From a virus, in the IMG/VR virus record IMGVR_UViG_3300035663_000033, positions 1 to 40,631 of that record: a stretch of DNA of 40,631 nt, one strand, 5' to 3'. Of this stretch, positions 23,908 through 39,480 are shown piece after piece; the first letter of the stretch is position 1; each line of letters opens with the position of its first letter. The translations under genes were made by a program, and so were the position numbers. The notes under the pieces were generated by a model. That model saw nothing but the letters and a program-made list of their open reading frames with translations, made no database searches and was not told the origin of the DNA.

Positions 23908-24324
23908 TTAGATGGAGGCGGTGATGGCGCCGCTGGTAATGAAGTTGCAGGTGATGACTTCGAGTTCGCCCACCGTGGCGCTGAAGTCGGCGCTGGTGAT
24001 GATGCCCGAGAAGGCGATCTTTTTGCCGCCGCTGGTGTCCAGGTACAGCTCGAAGGCTGCGTTGGCATTGTCCTCGGTGGTGAGGACGTCCTGGAGGAAG
24101 GCGGCGGTTTCGTCGGCGCTGGAGGCCGTGTACATCAGTTCGACCGTGCCAGAGCCTGAGATCAGGCCGCCGACGAACTCGCGGCTGGTGGAGCCGTGGT
24201 CAGTGGTGTCGAGCGTGTCCTTGTTGATGGTCAGGGACCAGCTGCGGGTTGAGGTGATAGCAGCAGGGGTGGAGCCGTCGTTTTCGAATTTGACGGAGCC
24301 CTCTTCGCCACGAAAAAAGGCCAT
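23908..24324 (-). CDS. Tail tube protein A (paralogue of B)
   Basis: A 138-residue protein with the tail-tube pattern: N-terminal MAFFRGEEGSVKF, a central WSLTINKDTLDTTDHGSTSR followed by GSGTVELMYTA, and a final strand set ATVGELEVITCNFITSGAIT. It aligns without gaps to the next upstream gene, about 98 of 138 residues identical by hand count. Tube subunits stack as hexamers around the tape measure. It starts just after a hairpin and a GTAGACT motif, so it may be separately transcribed or translated. Confidence 0.75.
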   Translation of the reverse strand: MAFFRGEEGSVKFENDGSTPAAITSTRSWSLTINKDTLDTTDHGSTSREFVGGLISGSGTVELMYTASSADETAAFLQDVLTTEDNANAAFELYLDTSGGKKIAFSGIITSADFSATVGELEVITCNFITSGAITASI

Positions 24325-24381: not shown

Positions 24382-24798
24382 TTAGATAGAGGCGGTGATT
24401 GCGCCAGAGCTGATGAAGTTGACGGTGATGACTTCCAGTTCGCCGACGGTTGCGCTGTAGTCAGCGCTGGTGATGATGCCGGTGAAGGTGATTTTCTTGG
24501 TGCCGGAGGTGTCCAAGAAGAGTTCGAATTGGGCGTCGGTTTGGTCCTTGGTGGTCAGGACGTCGTCGATGAAGTTGAGGGTTTCGCCCGAGCCGGGGGC
24601 GGTGTACATGACTTCGGCGCTGCCGCTTCCAGAGAGGAGGCTGCCAATGAATTCACGGCTGGTCGAACCTTGGTCGGTTACGTCCAGAGTGTCTTTGTTG
24701 ATGGTGAAGCTCCAGCTGCGGGTGGACGAGACTGCGGCCACGACGCCGGAGCTGTCCTTGAAGCTGATGGAGCCCTCCTCGCCGCGAAAGAAAGCCAC
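24382..24798 (-). CDS. Tail tube protein B (paralogue of A)
   Basis: A 138-residue protein, gap-free paralogue of the neighbouring tube protein. Differences cluster at residues 11-22 and 66-90; the C-terminal third (KKITFTGIITSADYSATVGE onward) is almost unchanged. The clustering suggests the same core fold with altered surface loops. Two tube genes in a row are uncommon; one may be a tube variant, a different ring, or a chaperone-like decoy. Both lie next to the portal rather than next to the chaperone G gene, where tube genes normally sit. Confidence 0.75.
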   Translation of the reverse strand: MAFFRGEEGSISFKDSSGVVAAVSSTRSWSFTINKDTLDVTDQGSTSREFIGSLLSGSGSAEVMYTAPGSGETLNFIDDVLTTKDQTDAQFELFLDTSGTKKITFTGIITSADYSATVGELEVITVNFISSGAITASI

Positions 24799-25748: not shown

Positions 25749-26999
25749 TTAGTAGAGGCGGTAGGAGGTTTGGCCGAGGGTGCCGTGTTTGGCGAGGTTG
25801 AATTGTTGGAGGCAGAGGTAGCCGAAGGCGTCGAAAGCGTGGTCTACGCCTAGGTTTTTGTTGGGGAGGCCAGTTCCAGGGGCGTAGGTGAGGGTGCGGA
25901 GGGATTTGATTAGTTCTTTGCAGCGGGGGTGGATGTAGGTGCGGCGTGTTCCAGTCGCATCCAAGAGGGCGGTGTTGACGGCGGTGATTTTGTCGCGGAT
26001 TTTCCAGGGGGCTTTGGGGCTGGAGACGTTAAAACCGCTGCGGCGGAGGATGTTGTGGTCGGTAAGTCCCACGCCGGAGGTTTTGCGAGCGCCACCGGTG
26101 GGGTCGGGACATGCGATGACGCGGCGATCCACGCCGAAGCGGCGGGTGACTTCTTCGGCAAAGTCCCAAGTGGTGGCGCCACCAGTGAGCATGATTTCGT
26201 CGAAGACGTAGAGGGTGTCGTCTTTGAGGACGGCGCAGATGCCGGACATGGGATCCACGTTGAAGTCCACCCCCAAAAGGAGTGGAAGTATTGAAATGTC
26301 GGCTGCGTCGGTGGAGATATTGGCGTCGCTGAAGGAGACGGCGACGAGGCCGCTCAGGTTTTCGAAGCTGGCTTCGAATTCTTGGCGGAAGGTGCGCGAG
26401 TCGAGTTGGCTGCGGGCGGCTTCGATTTCCTCGGCGGGGACGTTGTCGCCTTCGATGGTGGTGAACTGCCAGCGGCTCCAGTCGGAATCGCCGGAGTCGG
26501 CGTATTGCCAGAGTTCGTAGAACCAGCTGGCGGTGCCGTCGGGGGTGGAGATGAAGAGTGCCCAGCCTTGTTTGTCGGCGAGTGCGGGTCGGATGACTTC
26601 GAACCAGACGTCGCTGGACATGAACGCGGCTTCGTCGAGCACCACGCCAGCCAGACTGCGGCCTCGCAGGGCCATGGCATTTTCAGTGCCCTTCAGTTCG
26701 ATGGTGGAGCCGTTCACCAGCTCGATTTTTAGGTCGGTCTCGTTTTTGGATTTGATCCAGGCTTTTGGGACAAGTTTTTTTAGTACCTTCCAGGCGATGT
26801 CTTTCGCCATGCGGTAGGTGGGGGCGGCGTAGAAAAAGGTTTCGCCGGGGCGTTCGATTGCCCCACGCAAAAGTTCGATGCAGGAGAGGTAGCTCTTGCC
26901 GAAGCGGCGGCCGGCAACCAAGACACGGAAGCGTTTACGGCTGGAGAAGACTTGTCCCTGGGCGTAGCGGAGGGAGAGGGTTCCAGCCGTTTCGGCCAT
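25749..26999 (-). CDS. terL: Terminase large subunit
   Basis: A 416-residue packaging motor. The ATPase has Walker A AGRRFGKS (29-36), a coupling region ALFISTPDG (147-155) and Walker B GVVLDE (118-123). The RNase H-like nuclease has LGVDFNVDP (Asp245), ACPDPTGG (Asp299) and GVDHAFDAFGY (Asp386/Asp390). It translocates DNA into the head through the portal and cuts the concatemer. Length is normal. No Shine-Dalgarno is evident. A 222-base repeat-rich segment precedes it. Confidence 0.95.
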   Translation of the reverse strand: MAETAGTLSLRYAQGQVFSSRKRFRVLVAGRRFGKSYLSCIELLRGAIERPGETFFYAAPTYRMAKDIAWKVLKKLVPKAWIKSKNETDLKIELVNGSTIELKGTENAMALRGRSLAGVVLDEAAFMSSDVWFEVIRPALADKQGWALFISTPDGTASWFYELWQYADSGDSDWSRWQFTTIEGDNVPAEEIEAARSQLDSRTFRQEFEASFENLSGLVAVSFSDANISTDAADISILPLLLGVDFNVDPMSGICAVLKDDTLYVFDEIMLTGGATTWDFAEEVTRRFGVDRRVIACPDPTGGARKTSGVGLTDHNILRRSGFNVSSPKAPWKIRDKITAVNTALLDATGTRRTYIHPRCKELIKSLRTLTYAPGTGLPNKNLGVDHAFDAFGYLCLQQFNLAKHGTLGQTSYRLY

Positions 27000-27359: not shown

Positions 27360-27473
27360 GGGTGAGCTCCGTTGTTGTCTTGCACAGTATAGAGACAGAA
27401 GCAGCGCGCGCCAGGGCATCGCCGCCGGTTGGGCAGCTGTCTACTGTTTCAACCTAAGACGCCGAATATCAGC

Positions 27474-27968
27474 CTAAGACTCTGCGCTGCGCTTGTCGTC
27501 GATCTCCACCCGAAGCACGGGGGCCGCGGCGGCCTGGGCTTCCGGTGCGACCTCGCCGACCACTGCGCCCATGTCCTTGAGCAGCATCGCTGCAGTCTGC
27601 AGCTGACCCTTCCGCACGGCAGCAGAGAACAGCCGTTCTCTCATCTGAGCGATTCGAGAGACTAACCGCGGCCTCTCTCGCTCAAAATCCTGCGCTACCC
27701 ACTGTTGCACAGCGTCCCAGTCTTTCCAGGCTGTACTTACAGCGATGCCCTCTCTTTCTGCGTGCTCTAGCACCAGTTGCCGTGTGGTGAGCCCGTCTAG
27801 TTGCCGTTTGTACAGCCGCTGTTGGCGTTGCTCTATCACTGCGTCAGGATTGCGCTTGCCGTAGATTCGCCGCATCCTTTCGGCGCTATCACGGGGATAA
27901 CCGTTCGCGGTTAAATCTTCCGCCGCAACTTCCGGCGCTTCGGTGTTAGCTTCCGGCTGTTCGGCCAT
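27474..27968 (-). CDS. Probable terminase small subunit
   Basis: A 164-residue protein from the ATG at 27968. Residues 1-30 are acidic and flexible. About 55-105 hold an HTH-like region (QRQQRLYKRQLDGLTTRQLV, HAEREGIAVSTAWKDWDAVQ) and about 108-145 a helical oligomerisation segment (RPRLVSRIAQMRERLFSAAV, KGQLQTAAMLLKDMGAVVGE). HTH followed by a long helix is the small-terminase layout, and the place upstream of terL supports it. It would bind the packaging site, perhaps in the adjacent non-coding segment. The 114 bases between its stop and the next gene show nothing else. A DNA-binding regulator is the alternative. Confidence 0.62.
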   Translation of the reverse strand: MAEQPEANTEAPEVAAEDLTANGYPRDSAERMRRIYGKRNPDAVIEQRQQRLYKRQLDGLTTRQLVLEHAEREGIAVSTAWKDWDAVQQWVAQDFERERPRLVSRIAQMRERLFSAAVRKGQLQTAAMLLKDMGAVVGEVAPEAQAAAAPVLRVEIDDKRSAES

Positions 27969-28037
27969 TGTTAAGATCCCCGGGCTGTTTGCTTCAATCT
28001 TAGGCTGTACCTTGCAAGCGGCCGCAGGCCGCGCAGC

Positions 28038-28064
28038 AAAAAGACCCGGCACACTGGCCGGGCC
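28038..28064 (-). terminator. Intrinsic terminator after ArdA-like gene
   Basis: On the minus strand GGCCCGGC-(6)-GCCGGGTC forms an 8-bp stem with one G·T pair followed by TTTTT. It lies 21 bases past the stop of the acidic protein gene, so that gene is a separate transcript from the terminase genes. Confidence 0.87.
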
Positions 28065-28085
28065 GTTGATCGGTAGGCGTTGGCC

Positions 28086-28751
28086 TCAAGCTGGGGAAAG
28101 TACCAGCCAACGAGCGGGAGACACTCGCGCCAGGCTGTAGCCGTCGGACTGCTGCAGGTACTCCCAGGCTTCGGCCCAATCGATGCAGCAATAGGGCCAG
28201 CGCATAGAGTCGGCGGCACCCTCGCCGATAGCCTCGGCCAGCATGGCAGCAGCATCAGCGCCGGCCTCGGCCTCGCTGTATCCTTCGGCTTCTCCACAGT
28301 AAGCCTCGGCCAGGTTGTCGGAGTCGTAGCCAAGATCGGAAAGCTCAGCGATCAGCAGCGCCAAGCGCTCGGGGCCGCAGTCCGTATCAACGCTGCAGGA
28401 GTCGAGCGCATCGCCCCAGGCTTCGTCAAGCCAGAAGCCGAAAGCGGCGCCATCTCCTTCGCTAGCTCCAAAATAGAAGCCAGCCGGGGCGGCGTCATCA
28501 AGTGCCAGGCTGAGATCCTCTAGGGTCAGGTTGGCTTCCTCGTCGTTCCAGTCCGACTCCTTGGAGTCTTCGCCCACCAACTTGGTCAGGCTGGCGAGGG
28601 TTTCGGCGTTTAGCAGCTGGGGACGATCTGCCAGCACTGCCACCATCTCAGCAACCTGCCAGAACTTCGGCAGCAGATCTTCAGCCTTAAGGGTGTCACA
28701 GCTGGCGATCCAAGGGAACTGTGCCAGCTGTTCGGGGGTGTAGTTGTGCAT
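28086..28751 (-). CDS. Very acidic protein, ArdA-like antirestriction candidate
   Basis: A 221-residue protein from the ATG at 28751. By hand count it has 44 Asp/Glu against 9 Lys/Arg, so net charge is about -35, in the range of DNA-mimic proteins. The C-terminal part (CIDWAEAWEYLQQSDGYSLA) resembles the ending of ArdA antirestriction proteins, and FYFGASEGDGAAFGFWLDEA in the middle looks like a folded β unit. ArdA proteins block type I restriction enzymes by imitating DNA. It has its own upstream intergenic region and a strong terminator, as expected for an early anti-defence gene. Family assignment is tentative. Confidence 0.5.
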   Translation of the reverse strand: MHNYTPEQLAQFPWIASCDTLKAEDLLPKFWQVAEMVAVLADRPQLLNAETLASLTKLVGEDSKESDWNDEEANLTLEDLSLALDDAAPAGFYFGASEGDGAAFGFWLDEAWGDALDSCSVDTDCGPERLALLIAELSDLGYDSDNLAEAYCGEAEGYSEAEAGADAAAMLAEAIGEGAADSMRWPYCCIDWAEAWEYLQQSDGYSLARVSPARWLVLSPA

Positions 28752-28904
28752 GGTGGGCCCACTGGTCGGTGGGTGCGTCGTGCCTGCCAATCATGCACCA
28801 GCAGTCAAGCTACCTGGGTCTGGTGTTGTGTAACTTAACAGATTGGCTGCGGGCTGGCAGGGGTCTGGTAGTATGTAACAGCAAACCCACAAACCAAGGG
28901 GGCC
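28752..28904. promoter_or_regulatory. Divergent promoter region
   Basis: This 153-bp gap separates the minus-strand ArdA-like gene from the plus-strand gene at 28905. On the plus strand GGTCTGG-TAGTAT (28862-28874) resembles the GGTCTGG...TAGTAT before 40435; TAGTAT is a plausible -10, 31 bases before the start. Two GTAAC-containing segments (28829-, 28875-) also occur. No -35 is convincing. Confidence 0.4.
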
Positions 28905-29123
28905 ATGCACTACGGCAACAGACCATTAGGACCACTGCAGCGGAACTGGCTTAACTTCCTCCGCCGCAACCCGGGGCCGCATTATGTGGCGATGCCCCAG
29001 CGCGATCAGCGGATCGCCGATTCCCTGCAGGCCCGCGGGCTGATCACACTGGCCCCAGCACCAGTCAGCGACCCCAAGGGGCTCCCAGTGTTCATCGTTG
29101 AAGCCCTGGAGGTCCAGCCGTGA
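28905..29123 (+). CDS. Possible winged-helix small protein (72 aa)
   Basis: The 72-residue product contains LGPLQRNWLNFLRRNPGPHY and RDQRIADSLQARGLITLAPA, a pattern like a winged-helix DNA-binding unit (helix, helix, wing 'GLITL'). A good ribosome-binding site (AAGGGGG) lies 4 bases before the ATG. It is first in a two-gene operon, with the next gene starting on its own stop (GTGA). It may be a small transcription regulator, but the assignment is weak. Confidence 0.6.
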   Translation: MHYGNRPLGPLQRNWLNFLRRNPGPHYVAMPQRDQRIADSLQARGLITLAPAPVSDPKGLPVFIVEALEVQP

Positions 29124-29578
29124 GCGGGGGAGACTGGAATACCAGCCGGGAGCGTAAACAGCTGGCCCTAGATGCCCGAGAGCTGGAGCGCGAACAGCTG
29201 CGGCTGGAGAAACGCCAGCTGCGGGACTTGCGGTGGGCAGTAGAACGCTCCAGCCTGGCGGCTTCAGACTGGGCTGATCTGCTGGCCCTGCAGGCTGCCC
29301 ACGGTAAAGAGGGCCCGCTCCAGCTGTGGCGGGAACTGGTGCCCTACTGGAGGGCCTGTCAGCGTTGCAACGGCGGGGCTGACATTCCCCCGGAACTTTT
29401 TCCACAGGCTACGGGTATTTTTCCGCGCACCGTTCCCACTAACGCCCCAGCTGTTGCGGGGAGCGCAGCGACCCGCGCCCCAGCCAACCGCACCCGCTCC
29501 AGCAAGGGGGCAGCCCGTAAGGTTCGATCCGATGCTGGCGTCAGCAAGCCCCGCAAGGTGCGAGCCCCGCAGGGGTGA
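29120..29578 (+). CDS. Coiled-coil protein with basic tail (152 aa)
   Basis: From a GTG that overlaps the previous stop. Residues about 8-50 are a charged coiled coil (RERKQLALDARELEREQLRL, EKRQLRDLRWAVERSSLAAS). A CxxC (RACQRCNGG, about 79-87) follows, and the C-terminal 45 residues are Arg/Lys/Ala/Pro-rich and likely bind nucleic acid. No family recognised. A strong terminator follows the stop, making a two-gene unit with the gene upstream. Confidence 0.55.
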   Translation: MSGGDWNTSRERKQLALDARELEREQLRLEKRQLRDLRWAVERSSLAASDWADLLALQAAHGKEGPLQLWRELVPYWRACQRCNGGADIPPELFPQATGIFPRTVPTNAPAVAGSAATRAPANRTRSSKGAARKVRSDAGVSKPRKVRAPQG

Positions 29579-29588
29579 GCACGTCCCA

Positions 29589-29620
29589 GCCCTGCCCTAC
29601 GGGGTGGGGCCTTACTTTTG
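29589..29620 (+). terminator. Intrinsic terminator after 29120-29578
   Basis: GCCCTGCCC-TACG-GGGTGGGGC (29589-29610) is a 9-bp stem with two G·T pairs, followed by CTTACTTTTG. It ends the plus-strand pair just before the convergent minus-strand small gene, whose stop lies at 29612. Confidence 0.7.
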
Positions 29621-29737
29621 TCTTGCCGTGAGACTCACGAGAATCGCCCTGAGACGCCCCAGCAGCAAGCCCCACGCCAGCCCCAGCAGGATCCCAGCCA
29701 ATGGCGCCAGCAGCACCGTCTCAGAGGTGAGACTCAT
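29612..29737 (-). CDS. 41-aa membrane protein
   Basis: A 41-codon frame beginning MSLTSETVLLAPLAGILLGL, continuing AWGLLLGRLRAILVSLTARQ and ending in Lys. Residues 7-26 are a strong membrane helix, followed by a basic, amphipathic C-terminus, giving an N-out, C-in topology by the positive-inside rule. It is the last gene in the minus-strand run that contains the recombination genes. Function unknown; a small lysis or superinfection-related membrane protein is possible. Confidence 0.6.
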   Translation of the reverse strand: MSLTSETVLLAPLAGILLGLAWGLLLGRLRAILVSLTARQK

Positions 29738-36179: not shown

Positions 36180-36692
36180 GTGTCGATCCTGTGTGACCAT
36201 CAGATTGTGTCGCTGGTGCGGCGGAATCTGGTAAGCCCTTACGACCAGGAGATGGTGAATCCCGCGAGTCTCGATGTGAGACTCGGCGAGAACGTGTTGG
36301 TGGAGTCACCGCTGACGCGCCACATGGTGCATCGCTCCATCGTGGGGCACACGCAGGAGGAACCTTTCTTGCTCCAGCCGCGTGAGTTCATACTCGCGGA
36401 GACGTTGGAGGAGTTCCAGCTGCCTGACTGTATTGCTGGGCAGCTGGCGCTCAAATCCAGCCGGGCTAGGGAGGGGATTGAGCATTTGCTTGCTGGGTAT
36501 ATCGACCCTGGTTACAAAGGGCGGTTGACGCTGGAGCTGCAAAATGCACGCGCTTTGCATCCGGTTTCATTGTGGCCTGGGATGCGGATTGCACAGATTG
36601 TGTTCCACCGCATGTCGATGTTGCCCGGCAAAGACTATTCGATGACCGGCCGTTACCACGGCGATACCACCGTTCAGGAATCCAAAGGATGA
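36180..36692 (+). CDS. dcd: dCTP deaminase
   Basis: A 170-residue enzyme from a GTG start. Signatures: NPASLDVRLG (27-36), the nucleotide-binding LKSSRAREGIEHLLAGYIDP (91-110), GRLTLELQN with probable catalytic Glu119, and MRIAQIVFHRM. It turns dCTP into dUTP (or dUMP in bifunctional forms) to feed dTTP synthesis; I cannot tell which form from sequence. No thymidylate synthase or dUTPase is seen, so it relies on host enzymes. The next gene starts in its stop codon. Confidence 0.88.
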   Translation: MSILCDHQIVSLVRRNLVSPYDQEMVNPASLDVRLGENVLVESPLTRHMVHRSIVGHTQEEPFLLQPREFILAETLEEFQLPDCIAGQLALKSSRAREGIEHLLAGYIDPGYKGRLTLELQNARALHPVSLWPGMRIAQIVFHRMSMLPGKDYSMTGRYHGDTTVQESKG

Positions 36693-37647: not shown

Positions 37648-39480
37648 ATGAACATTCTTCAGGGGATCGAGCACCTGCACACGCTCGACGGCGCCAGCTT
37701 CGTGGCGTTTGATGTGGAGACCACTGGGCTCCAGCCGAAATTTGGTGGTCTGCGGCTGCTGCAGCTGGCCACCGTGGATCAAGCGCCCGTTGTACTGGAC
37801 TGCTGGCAGTTCAGCGATGAGGACTGGATCACGCTGGAAAACTTCTTCACCAAGGAGCGGACCTGGCTGGCGCACAATGCCGTGTTTGATCTGGGCTGGC
37901 TCCAAGAGCATGAGATTTACCCGGAAGGGCAGGTGCTCTGTTCGATGCTGGCTAGCCGGATCCTGACCAACGGCTTGGCCAACGTGAAGAACGGGCTTCA
38001 GCACGTGGTCCGGCGGTATCTGGGCTACGAAATTTCCAAGGAGGAACAGCGCAGTGACTGGTCGGCGGATTTGTCGGCGAGCCAGCTGGAGTATGCGGCG
38101 AAGGATGTGGTGGTGTTGACGGAGTTGTGGGAGCCGATCATGCAGCGGATGGCGGCTGCGTCGCCGCCGTTGTTGCCGGCTTGGCACCTGGAGTGCAAGG
38201 CGTTGCCGGCGATGGCGCAGCTGTGGCGCACCGGGCTTCCTTTCGACAAGGACTCCTTACAACAGCTGATCGAGGACCTCGACATTGAGCACAACGAGGT
38301 TGGTGCCAAGTTCATCGAAGACTTTGATGTGGCGCTGCCGGAACCCGCCAAGCTGCATCGCGGGCTCGATGGCAACATCCTGTACCAAACAAAGCCTGGG
38401 GCGAAAGGTAAGAAAACTGATCCTGATGTTTTTAACCTAAATAGTCCGGTGCAGTTGCTGGCGAAGTTCACCGCGTTGTTGGGTGAGGCGCCTGTGGATA
38501 TGAAGACGGGGAAGAAAAGTGCGAGTAAGTCTGCGCTCCAAGAATACATCGGGGAGCACAAACTTATTGCGGATTATTTGCGGTGGAAACGTGTAGAAAA
38601 GCGGCGGCAAATGGCGGAGACTTTGTTAAAGAATTTGTCGGGTGATGGTTTTATTCGTGCCAGCTATCTGCAGATGGGGGCTGACACCGGAAGGATGAGT
38701 TGCATGAGTCCCAATCTGCAACAAGTGCCTCGGGACGTGCGTTTTCGGGCTTGCGTGCAGGCACCAACTGGTTGGCGACTGGTTGTAGCGGACTATGGAC
38801 AGATGGAGTTGCGGCTCGCGGCGGCAGAAGCTCAAGATCCTCTTATGACTCAGGTGTTCCAGCAGGGGAAAGACCTGCATACGATTACAGCGACGCAGAT
38901 TTATGGGGTCAAGGAAGAAGATGTTACAAAAGAACAGCGGCAAGTTAGTAAATCAGCCAACTTCGGTTTGTTATATGGAAGCGGTGCAAAAGGGCTCAGA
39001 AATTATGCAGCAGCGATGGGAATCCAGATGGATCTTGATGAGGCTGCGACGGTGCGGGAAAAGTTCCACGCTGCATATAAAGGCATCTCCAAATGGCAGC
39101 GCAACAATGCTCGCGCTGCTGATGCGGCTCCGGACAATCCATCTATCCGCATACGCATGTCGGGCTTGCGGCGGTTTCTACCGGGCGAGAACAATAAACT
39201 TACGACCCGTTGCAACACCCCAATCCAGGGAGCTGGTGCCGCCGTCCTCAAACTTACGCTCGGCAAACTGTGGCCGTTCCTTAAAGCAGACGGGGAAGAG
39301 CGGGTGCGCTTGGCCGGCGTGGTGCATGACGAGATCATCCTGCTCGTGAAAGAAGAACACGCCGACGTTTGGGCCGCTCAGCTCCAGGCAATCATGGAAG
39401 AAGCTGAAGCTAAGTGGCTTGGCGATATTCCACCGCTGGCCGAGGCTAAGGTCGGGTTGAGCTGGGACCAGGCAAAGTGA
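37648..39480 (+). CDS. DNA polymerase I (family A) with 3'-5' exonuclease
   Basis: A 610-residue replicative polymerase. Exonuclease motifs: FDVETTGL (Asp22, Glu24), LAHNAVFDLGWL (Asp81), YAAKDV (Asp153). Polymerase motifs: A, VVADYGQMELRLAA (Asp382, Glu387; most family members have DYSQIELR); O-helix RQVSKSANFGLLYGSG (Arg431, Lys435, Phe439, Tyr443); motif C VVHDEIILLV (Asp561, Glu562). There is no 5'-3' exonuclease domain, as usual in phage enzymes. It copies the genome with the primase-helicase. The gene after it begins in its stop (GTGA). Confidence 0.94.
   Translation: MNILQGIEHLHTLDGASFVAFDVETTGLQPKFGGLRLLQLATVDQAPVVLDCWQFSDEDWITLENFFTKERTWLAHNAVFDLGWLQEHEIYPEGQVLCSMLASRILTNGLANVKNGLQHVVRRYLGYEISKEEQRSDWSADLSASQLEYAAKDVVVLTELWEPIMQRMAAASPPLLPAWHLECKALPAMAQLWRTGLPFDKDSLQQLIEDLDIEHNEVGAKFIEDFDVALPEPAKLHRGLDGNILYQTKPGAKGKKTDPDVFNLNSPVQLLAKFTALLGEAPVDMKTGKKSASKSALQEYIGEHKLIADYLRWKRVEKRRQMAETLLKNLSGDGFIRASYLQMGADTGRMSCMSPNLQQVPRDVRFRACVQAPTGWRLVVADYGQMELRLAAAEAQDPLMTQVFQQGKDLHTITATQIYGVKEEDVTKEQRQVSKSANFGLLYGSGAKGLRNYAAAMGIQMDLDEAATVREKFHAAYKGISKWQRNNARAADAAPDNPSIRIRMSGLRRFLPGENNKLTTRCNTPIQGAGAAVLKLTLGKLWPFLKADGEERVRLAGVVHDEIILLVKEEHADVWAAQLQAIMEEAEAKWLGDIPPLAEAKVGLSWDQAK

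Follow-up and report, generated by a model that had tools for sequence, protein, structure and literature searches.

The window analysed here, a stretch of 40,631 bases of viral DNA, carries on its minus strand a gene for an extremely acidic protein built of two domains (28086..28751). Its open reading frame has two possible starts, TTG at 28790 or ATG at 28751, and ends at 28086. The same start methionine (ATG 28751) is used by close relatives. Read from this codon to the stop codon at 28088-28086, the product has 221 amino acids, with 44 aspartate or glutamate residues against 9 lysine or arginine residues and a net charge of about -35. The initial annotation had reported about 44 acidic against 9 basic residues, a count that proved exact. 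Acidic and basic residues number 22 and 5 in residues 1-110, and 22 and 4 in residues 111-221. With -0.158 per residue the protein is the most acidic among 27 open reading frames, hand-picked as the likely genes of the window; the runner-up reaches -0.087. Residues 1-109 (28425..28751, minus strand) form an N-terminal domain that we named the GDG domain for the purposes of this analysis, with the motif YFGxxxGDGAxFGFW near its end. Residues 110-221 (28089..28424, minus strand) form a C-terminal ArdA-like domain. The conserved motif at the junction, GFYFGASEGDGAAFGFWLD, spans residues 91-109 (28425..28481, minus strand).

Downstream of the gene, 21 nt past the stop codon, lies a terminator-like hairpin of 8 base pairs, 7 of them G-C, followed by TTTTT (28064-28043, minus strand). 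Two hairpin-plus-T-run sites occur in the 2.3-kb region against 1.3 expected, and their number alone is uninformative. Under a strict test, which asked for a perfect stem and a T run no more than 60 nt past the stop codon, such a hairpin was found in 23 of 47 family members including that of the window, and not in the other 24; a (G)CCCGGC/GCCGGG(C) stem is common to 13 of these 23. Upstream, a divergent intergenic region of 153 nt (28752..28904) separates the acidic gene from a divergent 72-aa ORF (28905..29123, plus strand) with a very weak MarR-like match (E 0.1), which is present also in some relatives lacking the acidic gene. The terminator of its own and the upstream gap that had been noted for the gene are both there. 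Next comes a basic 152-aa ORF (29120..29578, plus strand), a frequent neighbour in related loci. A sigma-70-type promoter was not found in 27400-29700. On the other side, the presumed small terminase subunit (27474..28052, minus strand) is named from its position only and has no convincing family match; its start is more likely an ATG further on, near 27971, than the listed GTG, which overlaps the terminator. The terminase large subunit is encoded at 25749..26999 (minus strand).

In viral contigs, 87 pattern-matching stretches encode a relative of the protein, of which the best 80 were kept. A pattern search of 84,980 bacterial and archaeal genomes, one per species, gave a single relative, on a contig from the MAG of an uncultured cyanobacterium; this contig has the same phage gene order as the related viral loci. 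No relative beyond that of this MAG resulted from a profile search of 292 genomes of its phylum. Among plasmids there was no relative of the window protein, and the C-terminal half of a relative gave one chance-level match; annotated phages provided a single weak partial match to the window protein. Hence, in the collections searched, the gene is almost confined to one group of uncultured phages. The family alignment of 47 rows, window included, is a selection from the related loci found, and the 47 loci used for counting gene order are an overlapping but different selection that leaves the window out.

In 13 chosen pairs of family members dN/dS was about 0.02-0.42 where computable, which indicates that the acidic protein is under constraint. 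Since relatives are encoded in many viral contigs and these values are low, 28086-28751 is a genuine, conserved phage gene. The net charge of the 47 members, window protein included, ranges from -28 to -39. Its spread of 2.43 is well below the 4.56 expected after permutation of alignment columns, and 0 of 1,000 permutations gave a value as low. The corresponding ratio is 0.54 for the acidic gene and 0.41-0.54 for five out of six neighbouring genes, the sixth having too few sequences. Charge buffering was dropped as evidence of mimicry, because neighbouring genes of the same loci are equally buffered.

The relationship to ArdA became visible in profile comparisons. The ArdA proteins were collected from annotated phages, starting from one weak match of a relative, and by applying the Pfam ArdA model to genomes of the MAG's phylum. 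An hhalign comparison of the C-terminal half of the family (47 sequences) with 19 ArdA proteins scored 97.1% (E 5.7e-11, for a single pairwise comparison), and 100 column-shuffled ArdA controls reached 1.1% at best with E never below 0.05. The N-terminal half scored 1.3% against ArdA, and 0.6% once 47 further GDG ORFs had been added. An HMM of 20 ArdA sequences, with E values set for a search size of 20,000, recognised all but 2 of the 47 family members at E<=1e-3. The window protein obtained 3e-4, its C-terminal half alone 3.8e-5, and the N-terminal half 440; among the controls, the best reversed family sequence stood at 86, and one of 14 other window proteins was reported, at 390. In the reverse search, 7 ArdA proteins out of the collection of 20 were detected by an HMM of the C-terminal half at E<=0.01, and the remaining 13 lay at 0.02-1.4. 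Its best match (2e-11) was the ArdA of the phi13:2 type, which had been collected because a relative had weakly matched it. Among 80 ArdA loci that had been retrieved by means of an unrelated ArdA query, the same HMM matched 6, the best E value being 5.5e-6. These values suggest that the relation of the C-terminal half to ArdA is distant, and nearest to one ArdA branch. Two anti-restriction PHROG families gave matches at E<=1, phrog_2059 to 38 of 47 members (best E 1.3e-4) and phrog_36653 to 29 of 47 (best E 5.5e-5).

Taken by itself, the window protein had no match in Pfam, NCBIfam, PADLOC or the anti-restriction PHROGs. The Pfam ArdA model (PF07275) matched neither this protein nor two sets of 10 and 8 proteins scanned at E<=10. 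Neither the single protein nor the 47-row alignment, used as queries against the sequences of solved structures, gave a meaningful match. The link to ArdA depends on the family and on profiles. An AbiEi match of one relative in PADLOC (E 7.5e-4, 61 residues) was judged to be due to chance; the window protein has no such match.

AlphaFold2 models were confident for the full-length protein (pLDDT 91.7) and usable for the C-terminal half (mean pLDDT 81). When the predicted C-terminal half was submitted to a structural aligner, the ArdA structure 2w82 came first of 193 chains with Z 5.1, followed by a row with Z 2.4; 89 of 113 residues were aligned with 2w82_A at an rmsd of 4.1, over ArdA residues 70-165. 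A Z score of 5.1 for a predicted fold is modest by itself, yet the aligner and the profiles agree on the same part of ArdA. In Foldseek, ArdA was not among the top 50 for the model of the C-terminal half, nor among the matches listed for the full-length model in the PDB and a viral library. In Tn916 ArdA, domain 1 comprises residues 1-61, domain 2 residues 62-103, and domain 3, which forms the dimer interface, residues 104-165 (PMC3906837). The match to residues 70-165 thus spans domains 2 and 3. Profile comparison shows homology between the C-terminal half (about residues 110-221) and ArdA domains 2-3. The initial annotation had called the protein ArdA-like with reference to its C-terminal segment: this holds within residues ~110-221, where the profiles are joined by a structure comparison that ranks ArdA first with a modest score, and fails for the N-terminal half with its 1.3% in hhalign.

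The N-terminal half belongs elsewhere. The family phrog_29605 matched 46 of 47 members, the window protein with E 3.5e-6, and the wider GDG family shares the motifs (G/S)TLRxEDL and YFGxxxGDGAxFGFW. When 47 loci were searched with an HMM of the N-terminal half, 47 ORFs scored E<=0.01, including one fused member. GDG domains were found as standalone proteins of about 95-130 aa, with a DHGN tail of 60 aa, and inside proteins of about 740-1,090 aa (among the loci carrying the latter are L126 2968-6249, L140 412-3504 and L124 1561-3777). Annotated phages also have this domain, e.g. in ORF041 of Pseudomonas phage KPP25. The standalone proteins are acidic too, with 17-27 aspartate or glutamate against 4-10 lysine or arginine residues (n=9). 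Neither PHROG nor Pfam gives a function for the family. For the full-length model the structural aligner reported weak rows over the N-terminal half (best Z 4.0), to which no known fold was assigned; a missing structural match is no demonstration of a new fold. The N-terminal half is an acidic phage domain, unrelated to ArdA, that occurs also on its own. The cysteine desulfurase label given to GDG-domain genes in the Pseudomonas phages phiR18 and CRPAP1904 is apparently a misannotation.

Of 47 family loci, 45 have a terminase gene, either the large or the presumed small one, downstream of the acidic gene on the same strand. The typical arrangement is primase-helicase, SSB, exonuclease, divergent ORFs, acidic gene, presumed small terminase, and large terminase; locus L095 has the acidic gene with its usual neighbours unrecognised. 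Presence of the gene was judged without bias by searching for the exonuclease, which gave the best 80 of 206 loci, some of them near-duplicates. The gene was missing from 47 of the 80, but 6 of these could not be judged because the contig ended before the next gene. Among the 74 assessable loci, 33 carry the fused gene, as one ORF in every case, and 41 carry neither half. Where it is missing the slot holds other ORFs, several of them acidic; no ArdA and neither half was found among the slot ORFs of 34 loci chosen out of the 47. Of ten slot proteins scanned, 6 had no PHROG match, 3 matched families of unknown function only, and 1 matched an HNH endonuclease. The gene is accessory, with a usual place upstream of the terminase genes, as expected of a counter-defence gene. 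One set of slot ORFs from loci lacking the ArdA-type gene consists of L190 2403-3014 and 15 ORFs clustering with it (plus strand, 125-309 aa); the representative has 34 acidic and 14 basic residues and matches phrog_3906, a family of unknown function. This cluster is perhaps another counter-defence gene.

Should the hosts be cyanobacteria, a suitable target would be common: of 146 genomes sampled from the MAG's phylum, 100 had type I specificity subunits (PF01420), and the MAG itself, one of these, had four matches. A cyanobacterial host is suggested by the one MAG contig and by a large terminase resembling that of cyanophage S-2L, to which Vibrio phages are equally near; the window's large terminase is 42.6% identical to that of S-2L and about 43% to those of Vibrio phages. 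S-2L is a diaminopurine ('Z') phage, and a purZ- or datZ-like gene was not evident by eye among the window ORFs from 34,000 on. Inspection by eye also brought up a dCTP-deaminase-like ORF (36180-36692, plus strand) and a family A DNA polymerase with an exonuclease part (37648-39480, plus strand). Two adjacent 138-aa proteins, both beginning MAFFRGEEGS (23908-24324 and 24382-24798, minus strand), appear paralogous by eye and likely represent a tandem duplication in the structural region.

The two halves of the fused gene have different histories. In loci L011-L013 the N-terminal half is 96% identical to that of the window protein, and the C-terminal half is about 98% identical to that of L023-L026. 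From about -240 to +300 relative to the start codon, the DNA of L012 mostly matches the window with an identity of 0.88-1.00; the change begins near the junction motif, and between +300 and +720, a little beyond the stop codon, L012 matches L023 with an identity of 0.92-1.00. Over about 400 nt after +720 neither the window nor L023 is closer throughout, and from +1140 to +1380 L012 is again closer to the window (0.85-0.93 versus 0.47-0.67). Thus, the C-terminal half has been exchanged between phages; the exchange starts in or near the stretch of the conserved motif and is less sharply bounded downstream.

GDG and ArdA proteins are also encoded by neighbouring genes. L156 has a tailed GDG gene and, 24 bp after it, a canonical ArdA gene; L136 has a GDG gene and then a small gene resembling the C-terminal part of ArdA. 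The opposite order, ArdA gene and then GDG gene, was found from the ArdA side in two contigs that gave an identical hit, L309 and L310. Starting from GDG genes, an ArdA-like ORF was nearby in 2 of 43 loci (L156 and L136). Starting from ArdA genes, a GDG gene was nearby in 3 of 80 loci, one being the query's own contig L307; without it these are 2 of 79 ArdA loci of one phage type. Anti-restriction was the commonest PHROG family among 36 GDG neighbours scanned, with 3 matches, of which only that in L156 is free of selection, as L136 was added knowingly and L309 came from the ArdA search. The 36 neighbours are 35 of the 46 listed, after 11 short or doubtful ones had been dropped, and the neighbour in L136; the gene caller recovered the GDG ORF in 35 of 47 loci. 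The fusion of GDG and ArdA in one group and their occurrence as separate genes, in both orders, in three phage types point to a shared task, although the neighbour cases are few and the counts stand without a background rate.

We consider it fairly probable that the gene encodes a phage counter-defence protein of the ArdA type with a new architecture, predicted from its homology to act as a DNA-mimic inhibitor of type I restriction. An antirestriction function of the protein is probable. Once the phage DNA has entered, the ArdA half would act like ArdA and use charge mimicry to fill the DNA-binding groove in the methyltransferase core of the host's type I enzyme. The N-terminal half would take the place of the missing ArdA domain 1, either making the mimic longer or providing further contacts, and a swap of the C-terminal half could alter which host systems are blocked. 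In Tn916 ArdA, domains 2-3 include the dimer interface and were modelled at the HsdS subunit of type I enzymes. Either end of ArdA alone is described to block type I restriction in PMC12548430, where sArdC protects lambda from it, with a stronger effect on EcoR124II than on EcoKI. Because sArdC alone confers this protection, a protein lacking ArdA domain 1 can work. The missing domain nevertheless matters, since in Tn916 ArdA domains 1-2 were credited with antirestriction and domain 3 with antimodification (PMC3906837). The GDG domain may supply what domain 1 did.

The protein could still be a DNA mimic of the ArdA type with another DNA-binding defence as its main target, such as BREX, another type of restriction or a nuclease. 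We regard this as rather unlikely, with some arguments in its favour: the host defences were surveyed for HsdS only and the host itself is deduced, the same slot is filled in relatives by other proteins, some of them acidic, and the known DNA mimic Ocr reportedly inhibits BREX as well. It is opposed by the fact that ArdA is the only homology with a known function, and its targets are type I enzymes (PMC3906837).

A decoy that regulates the phage's own packaging or transcription, the ArdA resemblance being structural heritage only, is improbable. The terminase genes downstream in 45 of 47 loci would suit a role in the phage's own cycle too, and ArdA-type proteins can bind the transcriptional repressor AllR (PMC13300388). 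Such a role fits poorly with the absence of the gene from 41 of the 74 loci of this same genome type that could be assessed, with its presence in L095 without recognised usual neighbours, with the terminator before the next gene in 23 of 47 members, window included, and with a swap that involved the C-terminal half alone.

The view that this is an unrelated acidic orphan whose ArdA likeness reflects composition can hardly be upheld: single-sequence Pfam searches and the Foldseek matches listed contain no ArdA, but the signal is lost in shuffled and reversed controls that keep the composition, the about equally acidic N-terminal half has no ArdA score, and structural alignment ranks ArdA first, by which this reading is refuted in the main.

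With an ArdA-type inhibitor of type I restriction as the preferred reading, ArdA-type antirestriction would extend to a group of phages where standard annotation of single sequences shows nothing. Beyond the initial annotation, our analysis adds the two-domain fusion, the accessory position, the form with neighbouring genes, and the swap of the C-terminal half. Fusion and gene neighbourhood together provide a lead to the function of a phage domain family for which none is given, and the natural swap is a ready-made experiment on the target range of a DNA-mimic inhibitor. More speculatively, and with the balance somewhat against it, the GDG domain, which occurs in many phages, may itself be a counter-defence module that works with ArdA-type mimics, so that the fused protein would be bipartite, with an exchangeable half for target recognition. 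If this were true, many standalone GDG proteins would be antirestriction or anti-defence factors that have escaped recognition, and the exchange of the C-terminal half would resemble the exchange of recognition domains in type I specificity subunits.

Among known systems, ArdA (PF07275; Tn916 ORF18, 2w82; gp048 of Cellulophaga phage phi13:2) shares with the window protein its acidity and the alignment of residues 110-221 with domains 2-3, including the WP..CIDW...W..L stretch (WPHNCIDWERAARDL in phi13:2). Judging from the 2w82 alignment and from Leu127 and Leu134 named in PMC3906837, this stretch covers the region of the dimer interface. Unlike ArdA, the window protein lacks domain 1, has the unrelated GDG domain instead, and is missed by the Pfam ArdA model. 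In sArdC, the C-type of small ArdA (PMC12548430), only the C-terminal part of ArdA is present, as in the window protein. However, sArdC is a standalone protein of about 114 aa, whereas here this part is fused to a domain of 109 residues, as a single ORF in 33 of 33 loci. Standalone small phage proteins of about 120 aa that resemble the C-terminal part of ArdA were also seen, namely gp139 of Curtobacterium phage Yappy (L180 1390-1746), annotated as ArdA-like, and L136 3118-3495. Furthermore, phrog_25535 matches 44 of 47 family members; it probably represents a small-ArdA family, judging from its match to one of the neighbour set that includes the L136 protein.

With the GDG proteins (phrog_29605; KPP25 ORF041) the N-terminal half has the motif (G/S)TLRxEDL...YFGxxxGDGAxFGFW in common. 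Those proteins are standalone, DHGN-tailed or large, whereas the window form is fused to an ArdA part. We found no description of a GDG-ArdA fusion in the open-access literature searched. Polyvalent proteins, as presented in PMC5512222, are comparable in that ArdA is one domain of a multidomain protein of mobile elements. Most of them come from Firmicutes, and in them ArdA is closely linked to ArdC-N; the window protein, by contrast, is a two-domain phage protein with a different partner domain. The best reading of these comparisons is that a GDG domain in place of ArdA domain 1 constitutes a new architecture for a known type of protein, that of ArdA.
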